DNA of 64,000 nucleotides, taken from positions 3,782,001 to 3,846,000 of the forward strand of contig NZ_JAZHSD010000001.1 of assembly GCF_036924745.1 (NCBI RefSeq). Direction: 5' to 3'. A program made the position numbers and the translations under genes. Each line of letters begins with the position of its first letter. Within the stretch, counting starts at the first letter, position 1. This DNA is from Bradyrhizobium sp. AZCC 1693. Its GTDB lineage: Bacteria; Pseudomonadota; Alphaproteobacteria; Rhizobiales; Xanthobacteraceae. The notes beneath the pieces were generated by a model. It worked only from the letters and a program-made list of their open reading frames with translations. It ran no database searches and was not told the origin of the DNA. Positions 4,599 to 13,939 of this stretch are shown piece by piece.

Positions 4599-5819
4599 TC
4601 ATGATGTGTCGATCCTGATCGGCGCCGGCGCCGGTGTGGGGCGGTGCTTCGGCTCGCAGCCGCGCTCAAAAGTCTCGATGACGATCATGCGGGCGCCGCA
4701 GCACGGGCATGGACGCGGCAGCACGCGGGGTTCGTTGATCGCGGCTTCGGGCGTCTCGGGTTCTTTAGGGCGCGCCGGCTGAGCGAGCAGCTGGCGCGCG
4801 TGCGCAATGTTTGCGGCTCGGGCGCCGTTGGCGAGCAGGCCATAGTGTCGGATGCGATGGAAGCCCTTCGGCAGCACGTGGATCAGGAAGCGCCGGATGA
4901 ACTCGTCGGTCGCCAGCGTCATCGCCTTGTAGCGGGCGGGCCCCTCGATCCGATAGTCCTTGTACTTGAAGGTGACACCGTTCTCGTCGGCGGACAGCAG
5001 CCGGCGATTGGAGATCGCGATGCGGTGGGTGTAGCGCGACAGATAGCGCAACACCTGCCTGGGCCCGGCGAACGGCTCTTTGGCGTAGACCACCCAATTG
5101 ATCTCGCGCAGTGGCGTCAGATAGGCAGCGAATGCAGCCTTATCGGCGAGCCGCGCATGCTCGCCGAAGAACTGCAGGCGGCCGGCGTGGTGAGCCGCGA
5201 CCAGCATCTCCAGAAACAGCCTGCGGAACAACGCCGAGAGAACCTGCACGGTCAAAAAATAGCGTGGTCGGCACGCGATCCACTTCGATCCGTCCGGCGA
5301 CAGGCCACCACCCGGCACGACCATGTGGACATGCGGGTGATGCGTCAGCGCGGAACCCCATGTGTGCAGCACCGACATGAAGCCGATGCGAGCGCCGAGA
5401 TGCTTGGGATCGGCCGCGATCGTGAGCGTGGTCTCCGCCGAGGCTTTGAACAGCAGGTCGTAGATCACCGCCTTGTTCTGATAGGCGATGTCGGCGATCT
5501 GCGCCGGCAGCGTGTACACCACATGAAAGTACGGCACCGGCAGGAGATCGGCCTCGCGCTCGGCCAGCCACTCGCGGGCCGCAGCGCCCTGGCACTTGGG
5601 GCAGTGCCGGTTGCGGCAGCTGTTGTAGGCGATGACGGTGTGGGCGCAGGTCTCGTTCTCGCAGCGCGCCACATGGCCGCCGAGCGCCGCCGTGCGGCAG
5701 CGCTCGATCGCACTCATGACTTTCAGCTGGCCGAGACTGACGTGGCCCGCATTGGCGCGCCGCCACGCCGCCCCGTGGTCGCGCAAGATATCCGCGACCT
5801 CCAGCGCTGGACGCGACAC
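4599..5819 (-). CDS. IS91 family transposase (Y2 HUH rolling-circle)
   Basis: A 406-residue transposase. The N-terminal zinc-ribbon-like region has cysteines in CENETC...CRNRHCPKC (residues 53-76). The metal-binding HUH motif is HPHVH at 161-165, and the catalytic tyrosine pair is Y259 and Y263 in RYLSRYTHR. A second cysteine pair (CPCC) lies near the C-terminus. These features and the length fit full-length IS91 transposases, so the enzyme looks intact. The start is a GTG that begins MSRPALEVADI, the usual N-terminus of the family, 12 bp after the recombinase stop. Both genes are probably one transcript. Confidence 0.95.
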   Translation of the reverse strand: MSRPALEVADILRDHGAAWRRANAGHVSLGQLKVMSAIERCRTAALGGHVARCENETCAHTVIAYNSCRNRHCPKCQGAAAREWLAEREADLLPVPYFHVVYTLPAQIADIAYQNKAVIYDLLFKASAETTLTIAADPKHLGARIGFMSVLHTWGSALTHHPHVHMVVPGGGLSPDGSKWIACRPRYFLTVQVLSALFRRLFLEMLVAAHHAGRLQFFGEHARLADKAAFAAYLTPLREINWVVYAKEPFAGPRQVLRYLSRYTHRIAISNRRLLSADENGVTFKYKDYRIEGPARYKAMTLATDEFIRRFLIHVLPKGFHRIRHYGLLANGARAANIAHARQLLAQPARPKEPETPEAAINEPRVLPRPCPCCGARMIVIETFERGCEPKHRPTPAPAPIRIDTS

Positions 5820-5831
5820 AGCTCCCGGCCG

Positions 5832-6752
5832 TTACGCCGGCGGCGGGTTCTTCCTGCTCTTCCTGGGTCTCTTGCGAGGCTGCGACAGCCGGTCGAGCGG
5901 GCTTTCGATCGCCGCGATCATGCCGGTGGCGACACGGGTATAGCGCGCCGTCGTGTCCAGTTTGTCGTGACCCAGCAGCGCCTGGATGAATCTGATATCG
6001 GTGCCGTCCTCCAGCAGGTGGGTCGCGAAGCTGTGGCGCAGCGCGTGCAGCGTCACGCCCTTCCTGATCCCGGCCGCATCGGCCGCCTCATGAAACAGGC
6101 GGTTGAGCTGGCGGGTGGTCATGGGCTTGCCGGCCCTGGTGCCGGGAAACAGCCAGCGTTCCGGCACGGGCGTTTGCGCATCGTGACGCGATGGGCGCGC
6201 CTTCCACCATTGCCGCAACAGATCGAGCGTCTTTGACGACAGCATGACATTACGGTCCTTGCGCCCCTTGGACTGCTCGATGCGAATGATCTTCTGCGCG
6301 CTGTCGATATGCTTGACCTTGAGCCGCACCACCTCGCCGGCGCGCAACCCGCAGCCATAGCCGAGGCTGAGCAGGAGGCGGGCCTTGAGGCTGCCGGCGA
6401 CGGCCAGCAGGCGCCGCGTCTCATCCTGGCTCATCACCAGCGGGATCTTCTGAGGCTCGCGGAGATGATAGATCTCGGCCGCAAGGTCCAATCGGCGCAG
6501 CGTCACGCGGAACAAGAACCGCAACCCGGTCATGATGCGGTTGCGGTTGCAGATGCTCGCGCCCGTCTCGGCCAGGTGCAGCTGGAAGCGGCGGATGTCC
6601 TCAAGTGTGGCCGTGTCGGGGGACTGCTTCACAAACGCCGCGAACCGCTTGCAACTGCTGATATGGCCTCTCTGCGTGCCCGCACAGAGCTTGCGCGCAT
6701 TCATGTCCTCGATCATGCGCTGGCGCAGCGGGCTGACAGCATCCGTACTCAT
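5832..6752 (-). CDS. Tyrosine recombinase/integrase associated with IS91 element
   Basis: A 306-residue phage-type integrase with the SAM-like N-terminal domain (about residues 8-95) and the catalytic domain (about 115-290). The visible active-site residues are the arginine in GCGLRAGEVVRL, HALRHSFATHLL, the late histidine in LLGHDKLDTT and the nucleophile in TARYTRV. The gene precedes the HUH transposase and is probably co-transcribed with it. Its role in IS91-type elements is not well established; resolution or targeting is possible. The ATG start has an AGGAG ribosome-binding site that overlaps the edge of an inverted repeat. Confidence 0.92.
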   Translation of the reverse strand: MSTDAVSPLRQRMIEDMNARKLCAGTQRGHISSCKRFAAFVKQSPDTATLEDIRRFQLHLAETGASICNRNRIMTGLRFLFRVTLRRLDLAAEIYHLREPQKIPLVMSQDETRRLLAVAGSLKARLLLSLGYGCGLRAGEVVRLKVKHIDSAQKIIRIEQSKGRKDRNVMLSSKTLDLLRQWWKARPSRHDAQTPVPERWLFPGTRAGKPMTTRQLNRLFHEAADAAGIRKGVTLHALRHSFATHLLEDGTDIRFIQALLGHDKLDTTARYTRVATGMIAAIESPLDRLSQPRKRPRKSRKNPPPA

Positions 6753-8470: not shown

Positions 8471-9469
8471 ATGGCAAGTCCGGCATCCGCGCGCGCCATG
8501 GAGTGCCTTGCAATGGATGCGCCGGTGGATGCGGTAACTTCGGAAACGATCGCACAATGCGAGAGGCTCATTCGGCCTTTCATCCGGCAAACGCCGATCG
8601 CCGAGGTCGATGGCGCGGAGTTTGGCCTTCCCGGCCATACGCTGACGCTCAAGCTGGAGTTGCTTCAGCATTCCGGCTCGTTCAAGGCGCGCGGCGCTTT
8701 CGCCAATCTCTTGACCCGTGACGTACCGAAGGCCGGCGTGGTCGCGGCGTCGGGCGGCAACCATGGCGCGGCGGTCGCCTATGCCGCGATGAAGCTTGGC
8801 AAGCCGGCCAAGATTTTCGTTCCGAGCATCTCTTCGCCGGCGAAGCTGCAGCGCATCCGCGACTATGGCGCCGACCTTACGATCGAGGGCGACCGCTATG
8901 CCGATGCGCTCGCGGCCAGCGAGAGTTGGGCGCAGCAAACCGGCGCACTGCAAGTCCCGGCCTTCGATCAGAAGGAAACCATCATGGGACAGGGAACGCT
9001 CGGCCTTGAGCTCGCTGGTCAGGCGCCCGATATCGACACGCTGCTCGTATCGGTGGGCGGTGGCGGGCTGATCGCGGGGATCGCCGCCTGGTACGCCGGC
9101 CGTATCAAGGTGATCGGCGTCGAGCCGCTCGCGTCGCCGACGCTGACCAAGGCCCTTGAAGCCGGCGGTCCGATCGATGCGGAGGCCGGCGGTCTGGCGG
9201 CGGATTCGCTTGCGCCGCGGCGCGTCGGTGAACAGGTCTTTCCGATCGTGCAAAAATACGCGCGGCAGACCGTGCTGGTTTCCGACGCCGCGATCGCCGA
9301 GGCGCAGGCGACGCTTTGGCGTGCCCTGCGCATCGTGGCAGAACCGGGTGGCGCAGCCGCATTCGCGGCGATCCTGTCGGACGCCTACAGGCCCGCCGCG
9401 GGCGAGCGCGTGGCCGTCATCATCAGCGGCGGCAACACCGCCGCCGTCAATTTCGACCTCACCTATTGA
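8471..9469 (+). CDS. Threonine/serine dehydratase family PLP enzyme
   Basis: A 332-residue fold-type II PLP enzyme. The lysine that should hold PLP is K72 in HSGSFKARGAF, the phosphate loops are SGGNHG (94-99) and VGGGGL, and SGGN recurs near the C-terminus. No regulatory ACT domain follows, so it is closer to catabolic dehydratases, serine racemases or hydroxyaspartate dehydratases than to biosynthetic IlvA. An internal ATG at 8513 (MDAPVDAV) is an equally plausible start, because the first 14 residues look unlike the family. Confidence 0.88.
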   Translation: MASPASARAMECLAMDAPVDAVTSETIAQCERLIRPFIRQTPIAEVDGAEFGLPGHTLTLKLELLQHSGSFKARGAFANLLTRDVPKAGVVAASGGNHGAAVAYAAMKLGKPAKIFVPSISSPAKLQRIRDYGADLTIEGDRYADALAASESWAQQTGALQVPAFDQKETIMGQGTLGLELAGQAPDIDTLLVSVGGGGLIAGIAAWYAGRIKVIGVEPLASPTLTKALEAGGPIDAEAGGLAADSLAPRRVGEQVFPIVQKYARQTVLVSDAAIAEAQATLWRALRIVAEPGGAAAFAAILSDAYRPAAGERVAVIISGGNTAAVNFDLTY

Positions 9470-9540: not shown

Positions 9541-9581
9541 TTTGGAATCGATCTAAATACTGGCACTGGAATCGCTCTAAA
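9541..9581. promoter_or_regulatory. Two iron-control-element-like (Irr box) motifs upstream of fbpA
   Basis: TTTGGAATCGATCTAAA (9541-9557) matches the rhizobial iron control element consensus TTTRGAAYNRTTCYAAA, as I remember it, at 16 of 17 positions. ACTGGAATCGCTCTAAA (9565-9581) matches at 14 of 17. The two are 24 bp apart centre to centre and lie about 90-130 bp before a ferric-iron binding-protein gene, the expected place for Irr control. In Bradyrhizobium, Irr acts through such elements. Direct binding here is inference. Confidence 0.75.
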
Positions 9582-9672
9582 TCGAGCCATTCGCGACATC
9601 CGGTCGCTGACGGCACGATAGCCGCTGCGCTACTGAGACCGGCATCTCCTCCACTTTTGCCGGGCAGCTTTC

Positions 9673-10698
9673 ATGATCAACTTTCGCGCTACCGCCGCAA
9701 CCGCCGCGTTGCTTTGTCTCACCGCGTTCGGAGCCTCGCCTGCGTCCGCCGACGGCGAGGTCAACGTCTACACCTATCGCGAAACCAAGCTGATCCAGCC
9801 GCTGTTCGATGCCTTCACCAAGGACACCGGCATCAAGGTCAACGTCGTCTCGGCGAGTTCGGGCCTCGAGCAGCGCATGAAGGCGGAAGGCGCCAACAGC
9901 CCCGCCGACGTGCTCTTGACGGTCGACATCGGCCGCATCGACGAGGCCGTGCAGGCCGGCGTCACCCAGCCGATCAAGTCGGTGGTGATCGATGAGATCG
10001 TGCCGGCGCAATATCGCGACCCGGACGGGCACTGGGCCGGCATTTCGATGCGCGCGCGCGTGATCTACGCCTCGAAGGACCGCGTCAAGCAGGACAAGAT
10101 CACCTACGAAGAGCTCGCCGACCCCAAATGGAAGGGCAAGATCTGCATCCGCTCCGGCCAGCACATCTACAATAACGGCCTGTTCGCGGCCTACACCGCC
10201 AAGTACGGCGAGGCCAAGGCCGAGGAATGGCTGCGCGGCGTGAAGGCCAACCTGGCGCAGAAGCCCTCGGGCGGCGACCGCGAAGCCGCGCGCGACGTCG
10301 CGGCCGGCAAGTGCGACATCGGCATCGGCAACACCTATTACTGGGCGCTGATGATGAACAACGATCCCGAGAAGAAGCCGTGGGCGGAAGCCACCAAGGT
10401 GATCCTGCCGACCTTCGAGGGCGGCGGCACCCACGTCAATCTCTCCGGCGTCCTGCTCGCCAAGCACGCGCCCAACAAGGCCAACGGCGTCAAGCTGATC
10501 GAATGGCTCGCCGGCGAGAAGGCGCAGCAGATCTACGCTGATTCCAACTACGAATACCCGGTTCGATCAGGCGTCGCCGTCAACCCGACGATTGCGGGCT
10601 ACGGCAAGCTCACAGCCGATCCGCTCCCGATCGCCAAGATCGCCGCCAACCGCAAGGCAGCCTCGACGCTGGTGGACAAGGTCGGGTTCGATAATTGA
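9673..10698 (+). CDS. fbpA: Fe(3+) ABC transporter periplasmic binding protein (FbpA/FutA type)
   Basis: A 341-residue secreted binding protein with a signal peptide (about residues 1-26, cleaved after ASPASA). The mature part begins EVNVYTYRE, and the later GNTYYWALM supplies the paired tyrosines that bind ferric iron in FbpA/FutA proteins. It delivers iron from the periplasm to the FbpB permease encoded next. Two iron-control-like motifs upstream support iron regulation. A GC-rich stem-loop follows the stop before fbpB. No ribosome-binding site stronger than GGGCAG is visible. Confidence 0.9.
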   Translation: MINFRATAATAALLCLTAFGASPASADGEVNVYTYRETKLIQPLFDAFTKDTGIKVNVVSASSGLEQRMKAEGANSPADVLLTVDIGRIDEAVQAGVTQPIKSVVIDEIVPAQYRDPDGHWAGISMRARVIYASKDRVKQDKITYEELADPKWKGKICIRSGQHIYNNGLFAAYTAKYGEAKAEEWLRGVKANLAQKPSGGDREAARDVAAGKCDIGIGNTYYWALMMNNDPEKKPWAEATKVILPTFEGGGTHVNLSGVLLAKHAPNKANGVKLIEWLAGEKAQQIYADSNYEYPVRSGVAVNPTIAGYGKLTADPLPIAKIAANRKAASTLVDKVGFDN

Positions 10699-10732
10699 TC
10701 GCACCAAGTCGCGACAGCATTTCCGCCAACAT

Positions 10733-10757
10733 GCCCTCTCCCTCCCCGGGAGAGGGC
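10733..10757. repeat. Stem-loop between fbpA and fbpB
   Basis: Perfect 10-bp arms GCCCTCTCCC / GGGAGAGGGC around TCCCC. No T-run follows, so it is not a classic terminator. In this place it could protect the fbpA message or lower fbpB expression relative to the binding protein, as REP-like hairpins do in other transport operons. Confidence 0.6.
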
Positions 10758-10801
10758 ATAATGCTGCTTGGGCTTCCGGCTTCATGCCGATGTGAACCGG
10801 C

Positions 10802-12448
10802 GTGACCCGGACCACGCGCTCGGGGCGGATCGCCGCAGCGATCGCGGTCGCGACCGCCATTCTTGTCGCAGCCCCTGTCATCTCCATCATCGCGCTGGCG
10901 ATGCAGCCGGCGCCTGATGTCTGGCAGCCGCTCATCGAATATGTGCTGCCGCGGAGCCTTCTCGACACCGCGCTCCTGCTCGGCGGCGTCGGCGCGCTGT
11001 CGCTTGCGATCGGCACCGGCGCGGCGTGGACGATCTCGCTGCATGAATTCCGTGGCCGGCAGATGCTGCTCTGGCTGGTGCCGCTGCCGCTCGCGATCCC
11101 GACCTATCTCGCGGCGTACGTCTATGTCGATCTGTTCGAGCCGCTCGGCCTGGTCCACCAGACGCTCGCACTCTGGTTGCCGCTGCAGAATGCCGTGCGC
11201 GTGCTTCCCAATTTGCGCTCGCTGCCCGGCGCCATCATCGTGATCGCGCTGGTGCTCTACCCCTACGTCTATCTTTCGGCGCGAACGATGTTCCAGTTCC
11301 AGAGCGCTGAATTCGCTGAAGCCGCGAAGACGCTTGGCGCCGGGCGCTGGACCACCTTCTGGCGCATCTCGTTGCCGATGGCACGTCCCGCGCTCGCGGT
11401 CGGCACAGCGCTGGTGTCGCTGGAAACGCTGAACGACATCGGCGCCAGCGAATATCTCGGCGTCCGCACCCTCACGGTGTCGGTGTTCACGACCTGGCTC
11501 AACCGCGGCAGCCTTGCCGGCGCCGCGCAGTTGTCCTGCTTCATGCTGGCGATCGTGGCCGGACTTATCGCAATTGAACGCTACGGACGGCGCAACGTCA
11601 CGACGGAATTCTCCGCCGAAAGCCCGCGGCTGACGCAGCGGACGACGCTTGCCGGCATCAAGGGCGGTTTGGCATTCGCGGCCTGCCTGCTGCCGGTGTG
11701 TCTGGGATTTCTGGTGCCGCTATTGTATCTCGCGCATCAGAGTTTCAAGCGCGGGCTGTTTGCGAACTTCGACATGGCGTTGTGGCGCGACGCCTTCAAC
11801 TCGATCGCGTTCGCGAGCCTCGCCACGCTGAGCGCGCTGCTGCTCGGCTTTGCGACCATTCTCGCCTGGCGCTGGCGGCCGAACAGGCTGCGCGTCGTCG
11901 CGATGAACATTGCGCAATTGGGTTACACGCTGCCCGGGCTGGTGCTGGCGCTCGGGCTGCTGGCGCCGGTGCTCGCCATCGACAACGCGCTGAACGCGCT
12001 CGCGGCAGCGCTCGGACGACCGCTGCCGGGACTGATCATGGTCGGCTCCGGCGCCGCCGTTGTCATCGCCTATGTGATCCGGTTTCTGGCGGTGCCGACC
12101 GGATTCATCAAGGCGGGGTTTGAGCGGATCCCGCACGATTACGACGACAGCGCGCGCGCCGTCGGCGCCGGCCAGACCACGACGATGCGGCTGATCCATC
12201 TGCCGCTGCTGCGCCCCGCCATGCTCGGCGCTGTTATCGTGGTGTTCGTCGATTGCCTGAAAGAGTTGCCGGCGACGCTGTTGCTGCGGCCGCTCAACGT
12301 CGACACGCTGGCGACCTCGATCTACCAATACGCCAGCCGCGGCAGTTTTGAGGAAGGCGCGCTCGCGGCGCTATTGATCGTCGCCGCCAGCATCGGCCCC
12401 GTGGCGTGGCTGACGCGGTTTTCAGACATCCCGAGCGGGCCGGCGTAG
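10802..12448 (+). CDS. fbpB: Fe(3+) ABC transporter permease (FbpB type, fused two-unit)
   Basis: A 548-residue inner-membrane protein made of two tandem permease units of about 250 residues each. Each carries an EAA-type coupling loop (EFAEAAKTLGAGRWTTFWRI near residue 170, and DYDDSARAVGAGQTTTMRLI near 446). This two-in-one layout is normal for FbpB. The GTG start lies about 100 bp after fbpA, beyond the stem-loop. No ATPase gene (fbpC) follows, so the energising subunit must be encoded elsewhere. Confidence 0.9.
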   Translation: MTRTTRSGRIAAAIAVATAILVAAPVISIIALAMQPAPDVWQPLIEYVLPRSLLDTALLLGGVGALSLAIGTGAAWTISLHEFRGRQMLLWLVPLPLAIPTYLAAYVYVDLFEPLGLVHQTLALWLPLQNAVRVLPNLRSLPGAIIVIALVLYPYVYLSARTMFQFQSAEFAEAAKTLGAGRWTTFWRISLPMARPALAVGTALVSLETLNDIGASEYLGVRTLTVSVFTTWLNRGSLAGAAQLSCFMLAIVAGLIAIERYGRRNVTTEFSAESPRLTQRTTLAGIKGGLAFAACLLPVCLGFLVPLLYLAHQSFKRGLFANFDMALWRDAFNSIAFASLATLSALLLGFATILAWRWRPNRLRVVAMNIAQLGYTLPGLVLALGLLAPVLAIDNALNALAAALGRPLPGLIMVGSGAAVVIAYVIRFLAVPTGFIKAGFERIPHDYDDSARAVGAGQTTTMRLIHLPLLRPAMLGAVIVVFVDCLKELPATLLLRPLNVDTLATSIYQYASRGSFEEGALAALLIVAASIGPVAWLTRFSDIPSGPA

Positions 12449-12632: not shown

Positions 12633-13289
12633 CTAGATCGCGCGCACAAAGCGGCGGAAGCCCGGCGAACCGGTGATCGCTTCGAACGCGGAATCGCGTT
12701 TTTCTTCGGCAAAGGAAAAACCCGCTTTCGCATAGCATCGCTCCGCCGCCTCGTTGCCGATCAGGAACGAGATCGATGCCCGCTCGAATCCCGCTGTCCT
12801 GCCGGCAGCCAGCGCATGATCGATCAGCGCCTGCACCAGCCCGCGTCCGCGATATTCCGGCAGCGTGGCGACGTGCTCGATCAGCCAGTCGCCCTCGCCG
12901 CCCTGCACCCAGCAAATCCTAGTGTAGGCGCCACGCTGGAAGATCGCCGCCACGTCCGATGCGCCAAGCCCGATCTCGCCGGCAGCCGCTTCGATCGCCG
13001 CTTTCGCGGCAGCGCCGGTGCCGGAGGCAGGCATGGCGCACAGCGAGGCGGCCGGTTTGCCCTCGACTTCGGCGATGATGAATTGCGAGACGTGCCACCA
13101 CGACGGGTGTTGCGCGACAGCGATCCGTTCGACAAACGCCAGGCATTGCGGCTCGTCCCAGCCGAGCGCGATGTCGAACCAGCCGCGCGGCAACGGGCCG
13201 CGCTGCGAGGCCAGGATATTGCGGGCAATGAAGCTTGCGTCGCCGGTGCGAGCGGGACGGATCGCAGGCAGCGACCGCCCCGCCGCCAT
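12633..13289 (-). CDS. GNAT family N-acetyltransferase
   Basis: A 218-residue acetyltransferase. The acetyl-CoA-binding motif A appears as VATLPEYRGRGLVQALIDHAL (about residues 140-160), and the C-terminal part ends NEAAERCYAKAGF, both typical of GNAT enzymes. The start ATG overlaps the scoB stop (TGATG), so translation is probably coupled to scoB. An upstream extension of the frame runs antisense to no gene but through scoB in another phase, and is rejected. The acceptor is unknown. Its place in a ketone-body/CoA-transfer operon is a hint only. Confidence 0.85.
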   Translation of the reverse strand: MAAGRSLPAIRPARTGDASFIARNILASQRGPLPRGWFDIALGWDEPQCLAFVERIAVAQHPSWWHVSQFIIAEVEGKPAASLCAMPASGTGAAAKAAIEAAAGEIGLGASDVAAIFQRGAYTRICWVQGGEGDWLIEHVATLPEYRGRGLVQALIDHALAAGRTAGFERASISFLIGNEAAERCYAKAGFSFAEEKRDSAFEAITGSPGFRRFVRAI

Positions 13290-13939
13290 CACGCGTTCTT
13301 CAGCGCGACGCGGAACTCGGCTTCGGTCTTGGCCTTCACCTCGTCCAGCGTGACGCCGTCGGCGAGTTCGATCAGCGCCATGCCGTCCTTGCCGTGCTTG
13401 TCGATGGTGAAGACCGCGAGATCCGTCACCACCATGTCGACCACGCGCTCGCCGGTCAGCGGCAGATTGCACTTCTTCAGCAGCTTCGGGCCGTCCTTGG
13501 CGGAATGCTCCATCACCACGACGACGCGCTTGACGCCGGCGACGAGGTCCATCGCGCCGCCCATGCCCTTCACCATCTTGCCGGGGATCATCCAGTTGGC
13601 AAGGTCGCCGTTCTGCGCGACCTGCATCGCGCCGAGGATCGACAGATCGATATGGCCGCCGCGCACCATGCCGAAGGAATCGGCCGAGGAGAAATAGCTG
13701 GTGTCAGGCAGTTCGCTGACCGTCTGCTTGCCGGCGTTGATGAGGTCGGCGTCCACCTCGTCCTCATAAGGGAACGGACCCATGCCGAGCATGCCGTTCT
13801 CGCTCTGCAGGCTGACGTCGATGCCGTCAGGGATATAGTTCGAAACCAGCGTCGGAATGCCGATGCCGAGATTGACGTAATAGCCGTCGCGCAACTCTTT
13901 CGCAGCGCGCGCAGCCATCTGTTCACGGGTCCAGGCCAT
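13289..13939 (-). CDS. scoB: 3-oxoacid CoA-transferase subunit B
   Basis: A 216-residue beta subunit of a class I CoA transferase. The catalytic glutamate lies in LQSENGMLG (about residues 44-52), with GIGIPTLV before it and [14 protein letters not shown] later, all diagnostic. With ScoA it should move CoA from succinyl-CoA to acetoacetate or related 3-oxoacids, feeding ketone-body or PHB breakdown into acetyl-CoA. It abuts scoA (one shared base) and overlaps the acetyltransferase, so the three genes form one operon. Confidence 0.95.

Follow-up and report, generated by a model that had tools for sequence, protein, structure and literature searches.

Two sequences resembling the iron-control element (ICE) lie upstream of fbpA and fbpB, the ferric-iron transport genes of a 64-kb stretch of Bradyrhizobium DNA (the window, by which we mean the whole stretch analysed); the features of the locus are collected in Table 1. 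FbpA matches solved structures with E-values of 3.6e-114 (1y9u) and 7.5e-100 (1q35, an FbpA), and the closest relatives of fbpA among the best 80 of 543 are found in Bradyrhizobium strains, with 97% protein identity. For fbpB, none of the NCBIfam matches listed (25 of 31) reached its curated cut-off. A serine/threonine dehydratase gene ends at 9469, upstream of fbpA. No ABC ATPase gene lies directly beside fbpAB (9673-12448), and the next gene after fbpB, on the minus strand at 12633-13472, encodes a GNAT acetyltransferase. Elsewhere in the window, an IS91-type transposase adjoins a tyrosine recombinase (4599-6752, minus strand).

Table 1. Features of the fbpA locus, with positions in the window
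Feature	Position	Strand	Description
Distal ICE (ICE1)	9541..9557	+	TTTGGAATCGATCTAAA; 12/14 consensus positions; 22.8 bits, rank 1 in the window
Inter-ICE spacer	9558..9564	.	variable in both length and sequence
Proximal ICE (ICE2)	9565..9581	+	ACTGGAATCGCTCTAAA; 10/14 consensus positions; 16.0 bits, rank 2 in the window
Conserved palindrome	9593..9607	+	GCGACATCCGGTCGC, GCGACAT-N3-GTCGC; RegR-box-like; between ICE2 and GCTAC
Presumed -10 element	9629..9634	+	GCTACT; start site inferred near 9641
fbpA	9673..10698	+	341 aa; periplasmic ferric-iron-binding protein; SBP_bac families
fbpB	10802..12448	+	548 aa; GTG start; two-domain permease, two BPD_transp_1 stretches

We take the ICE consensus to be TTTAGAA-N3-TTCTAAA, with 14 specified positions. 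In the window the two ICEs stand at a pitch of 24 bp from start to start and are 94% identical to each other over 16 nt. The original prediction credited one of them with 16 of 17 consensus positions, a figure that holds only if R is accepted at position 4 and the N positions are counted; with R at position 4, ICE1 agrees at 13 and ICE2 at 11 of the 14 specified positions (one and three mismatches). When the window was scanned with the consensus, allowing up to three mismatches, four matches were found against 1.37 expected (sd 1.30), and 7 of 100 shuffled windows also reached four; with so many matches arising by chance, ICE2 alone is unremarkable by consensus. When a weight matrix was derived from ICE promoters elsewhere in this genome and in the genus, with fbpA excluded, the two sites had the scores in Table 1 and the third-best site of the window 12.05 bits; the training sites had themselves been picked by consensus. 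A smaller matrix of five sites returned the same order (21.9, 16.0 and, for the next site, 13.8 bits). Among 4 million Markov positions none attained the ICE1 score and about one per million the ICE2 score, so that 0.064 sites of the latter score are expected by chance per 64 kb. Since matrices made without fbpA place the pair first and second, the match to the ICE motif exceeds chance, and these ranks, together with the homology of FbpA, bear out the prediction of two ICE-like sequences 24 bp apart upstream of fbpA.

Three Fur-family proteins are encoded in the genome. One of them is identified as Irr by the curated IrrA model (217.5 bits, cut-off 150; locus L103) and contains GCPWHD, which we take to be the haem motif of Irr. 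ICE matches in this genome precede the genes for bacterioferritin (bfr), MbfA, aconitase (acnA), LeuC and two TonB receptors. Across the genome, with near-palindromic sites counted once per strand, the consensus matched 38 times and the control 24 times, an enrichment modest enough that single matches mean little without conservation. The fbpA sites are like the B. japonicum ICE (Irr box) in sequence, in the presence of Irr and in their iron-gene context, and differ from it in forming two copies, at a conserved pitch of 22-24 bp, ahead of a conserved palindrome. In B. japonicum, bfr, mbfA, acnA and leuC are reported to be Irr-repressed, and Irr binds the bfr and mbfA promoters with high affinity (PMC4902296). 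Whether Irr activates or represses depends, according to a review, on the position of the ICE (PMC7762939). Two Irr probes for a single promoter are likewise described for Brucella rirA, a different gene, for which the available passages give no spacing or phasing (PMC10374146).

The strongest evidence for the tandem ICE is its conservation across relatives. The promoter set comprised 81 sequences, that of the window and those of the best 80 of 543 confirmed relatives. Of these, 46 Bradyrhizobium-type promoters were aligned for footprinting, and the relatives from Afipia, Rhodopseudomonas, Tardiphaga and elsewhere were excluded, as were L061, L097 and L092; L061 and L097 are Bradyrhizobium by title and fall outside the main clade in the fbpA tree. 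Both ICEs are present in 44 of the 46. The identity figures that follow were calculated from these 44, after removal of L036 and L037, which have no distal ICE, and so describe promoters having a distal ICE. TCTAA is invariant in both ICEs in all 44 promoters, as are GAA in the distal and GAAT in the proximal copy. Mean pairwise identity is 0.33 in the spacer versus 0.29 upstream of ICE1, and mean identity is 0.87 in the palindrome and 0.92 for GCGCTACT. With TCTAA fixed in both copies and the spacer at about the level of the flank, the sequences argue strongly that the tandem, in each of its two ICEs, is under selection. The doubling is conserved across relatives and so very likely functional.

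Over the whole set of 81 promoters (best 80 of 543 plus the window), 46 were scored as doubled, 33 as single and 2 as having no ICE. The pitch in the 44 loci of the 81 scored for two sites is 22 bp (4 loci), 23 bp (25), 24 bp (14) or 16 bp (1). A single ICE is present in every locus from Afipia (10), Rhodopseudomonas (10) and Tardiphaga (6); by its place before the palindrome it is the counterpart of ICE2. On a quick fbpA-gene tree the doubled state requires 4 changes, against a mean of 26.3 when shuffled, and marks the main Bradyrhizobium clade except for L036 and L037, whose lack of the distal ICE indicates that it is not essential. Two sites also occur on the deeper branches L092 and L097, the latter with the 16-bp pitch, so a single origin of the doubling cannot be claimed. 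The proximal ICE probably came first, the distal one being added, and then conserved, in the main Bradyrhizobium clade. A literature search covering titles, abstract openings and some passages, which is weak evidence on this point, found no description of a tandem ICE before fbpA.

GANTC, the CcrM methylation site, falls within the proximal ICE (9568-9576 and equivalent positions) in 66 of 78 promoters and within the distal ICE in 24 of 45; cell-cycle methylation of GANTC might influence the binding of Irr to the ICEs.

A conserved GCTAC, presumed to belong to the -10 element, starts 48 bp past the end of ICE2. GNTA begins 21 nt after the palindrome in 66, and 20-22 nt after it in 74, of the 78 promoters in which the rule recognizes a box (3 of 81 have none). 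A scan of the locus with the sigma-70 consensus found no promoter. A sigma-54 promoter was considered and rejected: TGGCAC-N5-TCGC in the window overlaps ICE2, but its TGGC part lies in the non-conserved spacer (identity 0.33), and no conserved GG-N10-GC was found in the aligned promoters. Given a start near 9641, the centre of the palindrome would fall at about -41, and those of the proximal and distal ICE at about -67 and -91, respectively.

For the RegR box we take GNGRCRTTNNGNCGC as the consensus. The palindrome of the window agrees with it at 10 of 11 positions, and a best match of at least 10/11 was obtained in 71 of the 81 promoters (best 80 of 543 plus the window) against 1 of 81 reversed controls; 8 of the 10 Rhodopseudomonas palindromes match it completely. 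The palindrome is absent from its expected place in L092 and L101, and in L029 and L080 the best-scored palindrome lies far off, though by eye a similar one is in the expected place. TCTAA and the palindrome are separated by either 2 nt, in 11 loci (L073 and the ten from Rhodopseudomonas), or 11-13 nt, in 65 loci; no intermediate value occurs, and 5 of the 81 promoters were left unscored. The classes differ by about one helical turn: the ICE has moved and yet kept the same face of the helix. The genome encodes RegS (592.9 bits, cut-off 350), and the adjoining open reading frame is RegR-type, with a response-regulator start and an RTLQR motif, presumably that of RegR.

We give RegR about an even chance of being the protein that binds the palindrome, and consider it equally probable that Irr acts through the ICEs while the palindrome binds some other regulator, for example a factor specific to iron uptake. 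Genome-wide, the RegR consensus is not enriched (43 matches against 64 in the control); of 30 loci taken from the 43, 6 have the match outside predicted genes, including one that precedes an HlyD-type efflux adaptor. GCGACAT-N3-GNCGC gave 30 matches against 15 in the control, of which 3 only, the fbpA copy included, are outside predicted genes, unlike what would be expected of the site of a global regulator. A search for ICE plus palindrome in 149 genomes of the family returned 22 matches against about 67 in a backwards control; 18 of the 22 precede fbpA (17 by tblastn and the window copy), the exceptions being L229, L240, L241 and L242. Against a regulator other than RegR stand the complete fit of the Rhodopseudomonas copies and the likeness of the palindrome to a fragment of bll3466, holding the putative box TGCGACATCGGCGGC, that is shifted by phosphorylated RegR of B. 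japonicum (PMC4064962). Of that box, GCGACATCG also occurs in 24 of the 46 Bradyrhizobium-type promoters and GCGACATC in 35, the window among them; GCGACATC is what the window has in common with the EMSA-positive fragment. The fbpA palindrome differs from the B. japonicum RegR box in lying about 21 nt before a presumed -10 element and in being paired with ICEs. RegR control of fbpA was not found in the literature passages covered. In Methylomonas, RegB/RegA, likewise a redox two-component system activating iron uptake, acts directly on the feo operon, as supported by ChIP at its promoter (PMC13274454); there, the transporter is ferrous, the organism a methanotroph, and the passages covered do not mention Irr.

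The match to the RegR consensus before the efflux adaptor gene is that of L129 (154-1362, minus strand), the adaptor being of HlyD/CusB type. The title of a cited reference names an RND efflux system under RegR control in B. japonicum.

The original prediction also proposed a genome scan for other doubled ICEs, and this brought out a second promoter family. Of 117 Bradyrhizobium genomes, a sample of the genus, 27 contain a strict tandem pattern in which the ICE starts could be 17 to 46 bp apart, with two control matches; all 27 tandems precede fbpA, at a pitch of 23 or 24 bp. Strict patterns catch only part of the doubled sites, as a comparison with the 44 of 46 aligned promoters makes plain. 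In the genome of the window, the strict tandem and module patterns returned the fbpA site only, and no control match. A second pattern, of TTTAGAA-type units 3-12 bp apart (a first step of 19-28 bp, with the second step free), gave 25 matches in 24 of the 117 genomes and none in the control. One family of TonB receptors, with at least 63% identity, accounts for 24 of the 25, the remaining one being a 33% relative. When sites of at least 9 bits were counted with a matrix whose training set included neither the receptor nor fbpA, at least three sites were present in 24 of the 25 loci, L188 and L191 being the same promoter, and 21 of the 25 had three sites following one another at 21-24 bp. In L002 (G000:C1:461750-464766), four ICE-like sites at 0, +22, +44 and +60 occupy 1501-1577, before the gene of a TonB receptor akin to catecholate siderophore receptors. 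In L176 and L186 the third ICE stands at 35 bp, about one helical turn further.

Judged by these patterns, doubling is a recurring architecture and not a freak of the window, and both cases concern iron-uptake genes. The recurring pitch of 21-24 bp suggests cooperative Irr binding, as originally proposed. The accompanying assertion that ICEs are mostly single holds, at the matrix threshold used in this genome, for bfr, mbfA, acnA, leuC and the TonB receptor of L007, but not for the other TonB receptor promoter with its array of at least three sites. The single ICE of L007 at that threshold led us to reject arrays as a mark of all uptake genes.

From the sequence, its conservation and spacings, and the presence of Irr, RegS and RegR-type genes, we infer binding, the direction of control, the start site, cooperation and RegR as the binder, and we think it likely that Irr on the tandem ICE activates fbpAB at low iron together with a second regulator near -41, for which RegR is the best candidate. 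Under iron limitation Irr would be stable, and two Irr dimers would occupy the neighbouring ICEs, at about -91 and -67. ICE-bound Irr would then help RNA polymerase at a promoter without a recognizable -35 element, raising ferric-iron uptake; with plentiful iron, and hence haem, Irr would be lost and uptake would fall. The second DNA-binding regulator, most plausibly the redox response regulator RegR, would sit on the palindrome, whose centre at about -41 is where class II activators usually bind, with the ICE on a fixed face of the helix relative to it. This activator reading depends on the presumed start near 9641. The dual control that the original prediction drew from the doubling is thus plausible, although its best evidence is the palindrome, which the prediction did not mention, rather than the doubling itself.

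It is improbable that only the proximal ICE matters, the distal copy serving to raise the local Irr concentration or being a weak relic of duplication. Such a reading would fit the lone ICE of the 26 Afipia, Rhodopseudomonas and Tardiphaga loci and the two Bradyrhizobium loci without a distal ICE, but GAA and TCTAA of the distal copy do not vary across 44 promoters although the inner bases do, and the distal ICE is closer to consensus than the proximal one in 41 of the 44 and equal to it in 3. The proximal copies mostly share one departure from consensus, CTCTAA for TTCTAA. Somewhat less probable still is repression of fbpA by Irr through the tandem ICE, with the doubling tightening repression, as might be modelled on B. 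japonicum bfr and mbfA (PMC4902296): blocking iron import when iron is low makes little physiological sense, and the conserved GCTAC is not covered by the ICEs, which are well upstream of it; in S. meliloti mbfA, by contrast, the ICE that mediates repression overlaps the core promoter (PMC7540006). That the sites belong to a Fur/Mur-like or Zur-like protein is hardly credible despite the two further Fur-family proteins of the genome, as Mur and Zur boxes should have cores unlike the ICE and the motif is the same as at bfr, mbfA, acnA and leuC.

To our knowledge, gene activation by Irr, as opposed to repression, is poorly explained. Beyond activation of fbpAB by Irr and a second regulator, we regard as possible, if doubtful, a wider scheme in which some Irr-activated iron-uptake promoters of Bradyrhizobium are phased arrays where two or more Irr dimers at a pitch of 21-24 bp act as a graded switch, single ICEs serve repression, and at fbpA the array is coupled, along a single face of the helix, to a redox regulator at -41. 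If this were true, full opening of ferric uptake would require both a shortage of iron and a respiratory redox state that demands it. A pitch that recurs at two unrelated uptake promoters, together with a fixed helical face, would offer a concrete and cheap system for the study of Irr activation. Nodule symbiosis requires much iron at low oxygen, and if the palindrome is a RegR site, ferric-iron import in these nodule bacteria would be tied to oxygen and redox state.
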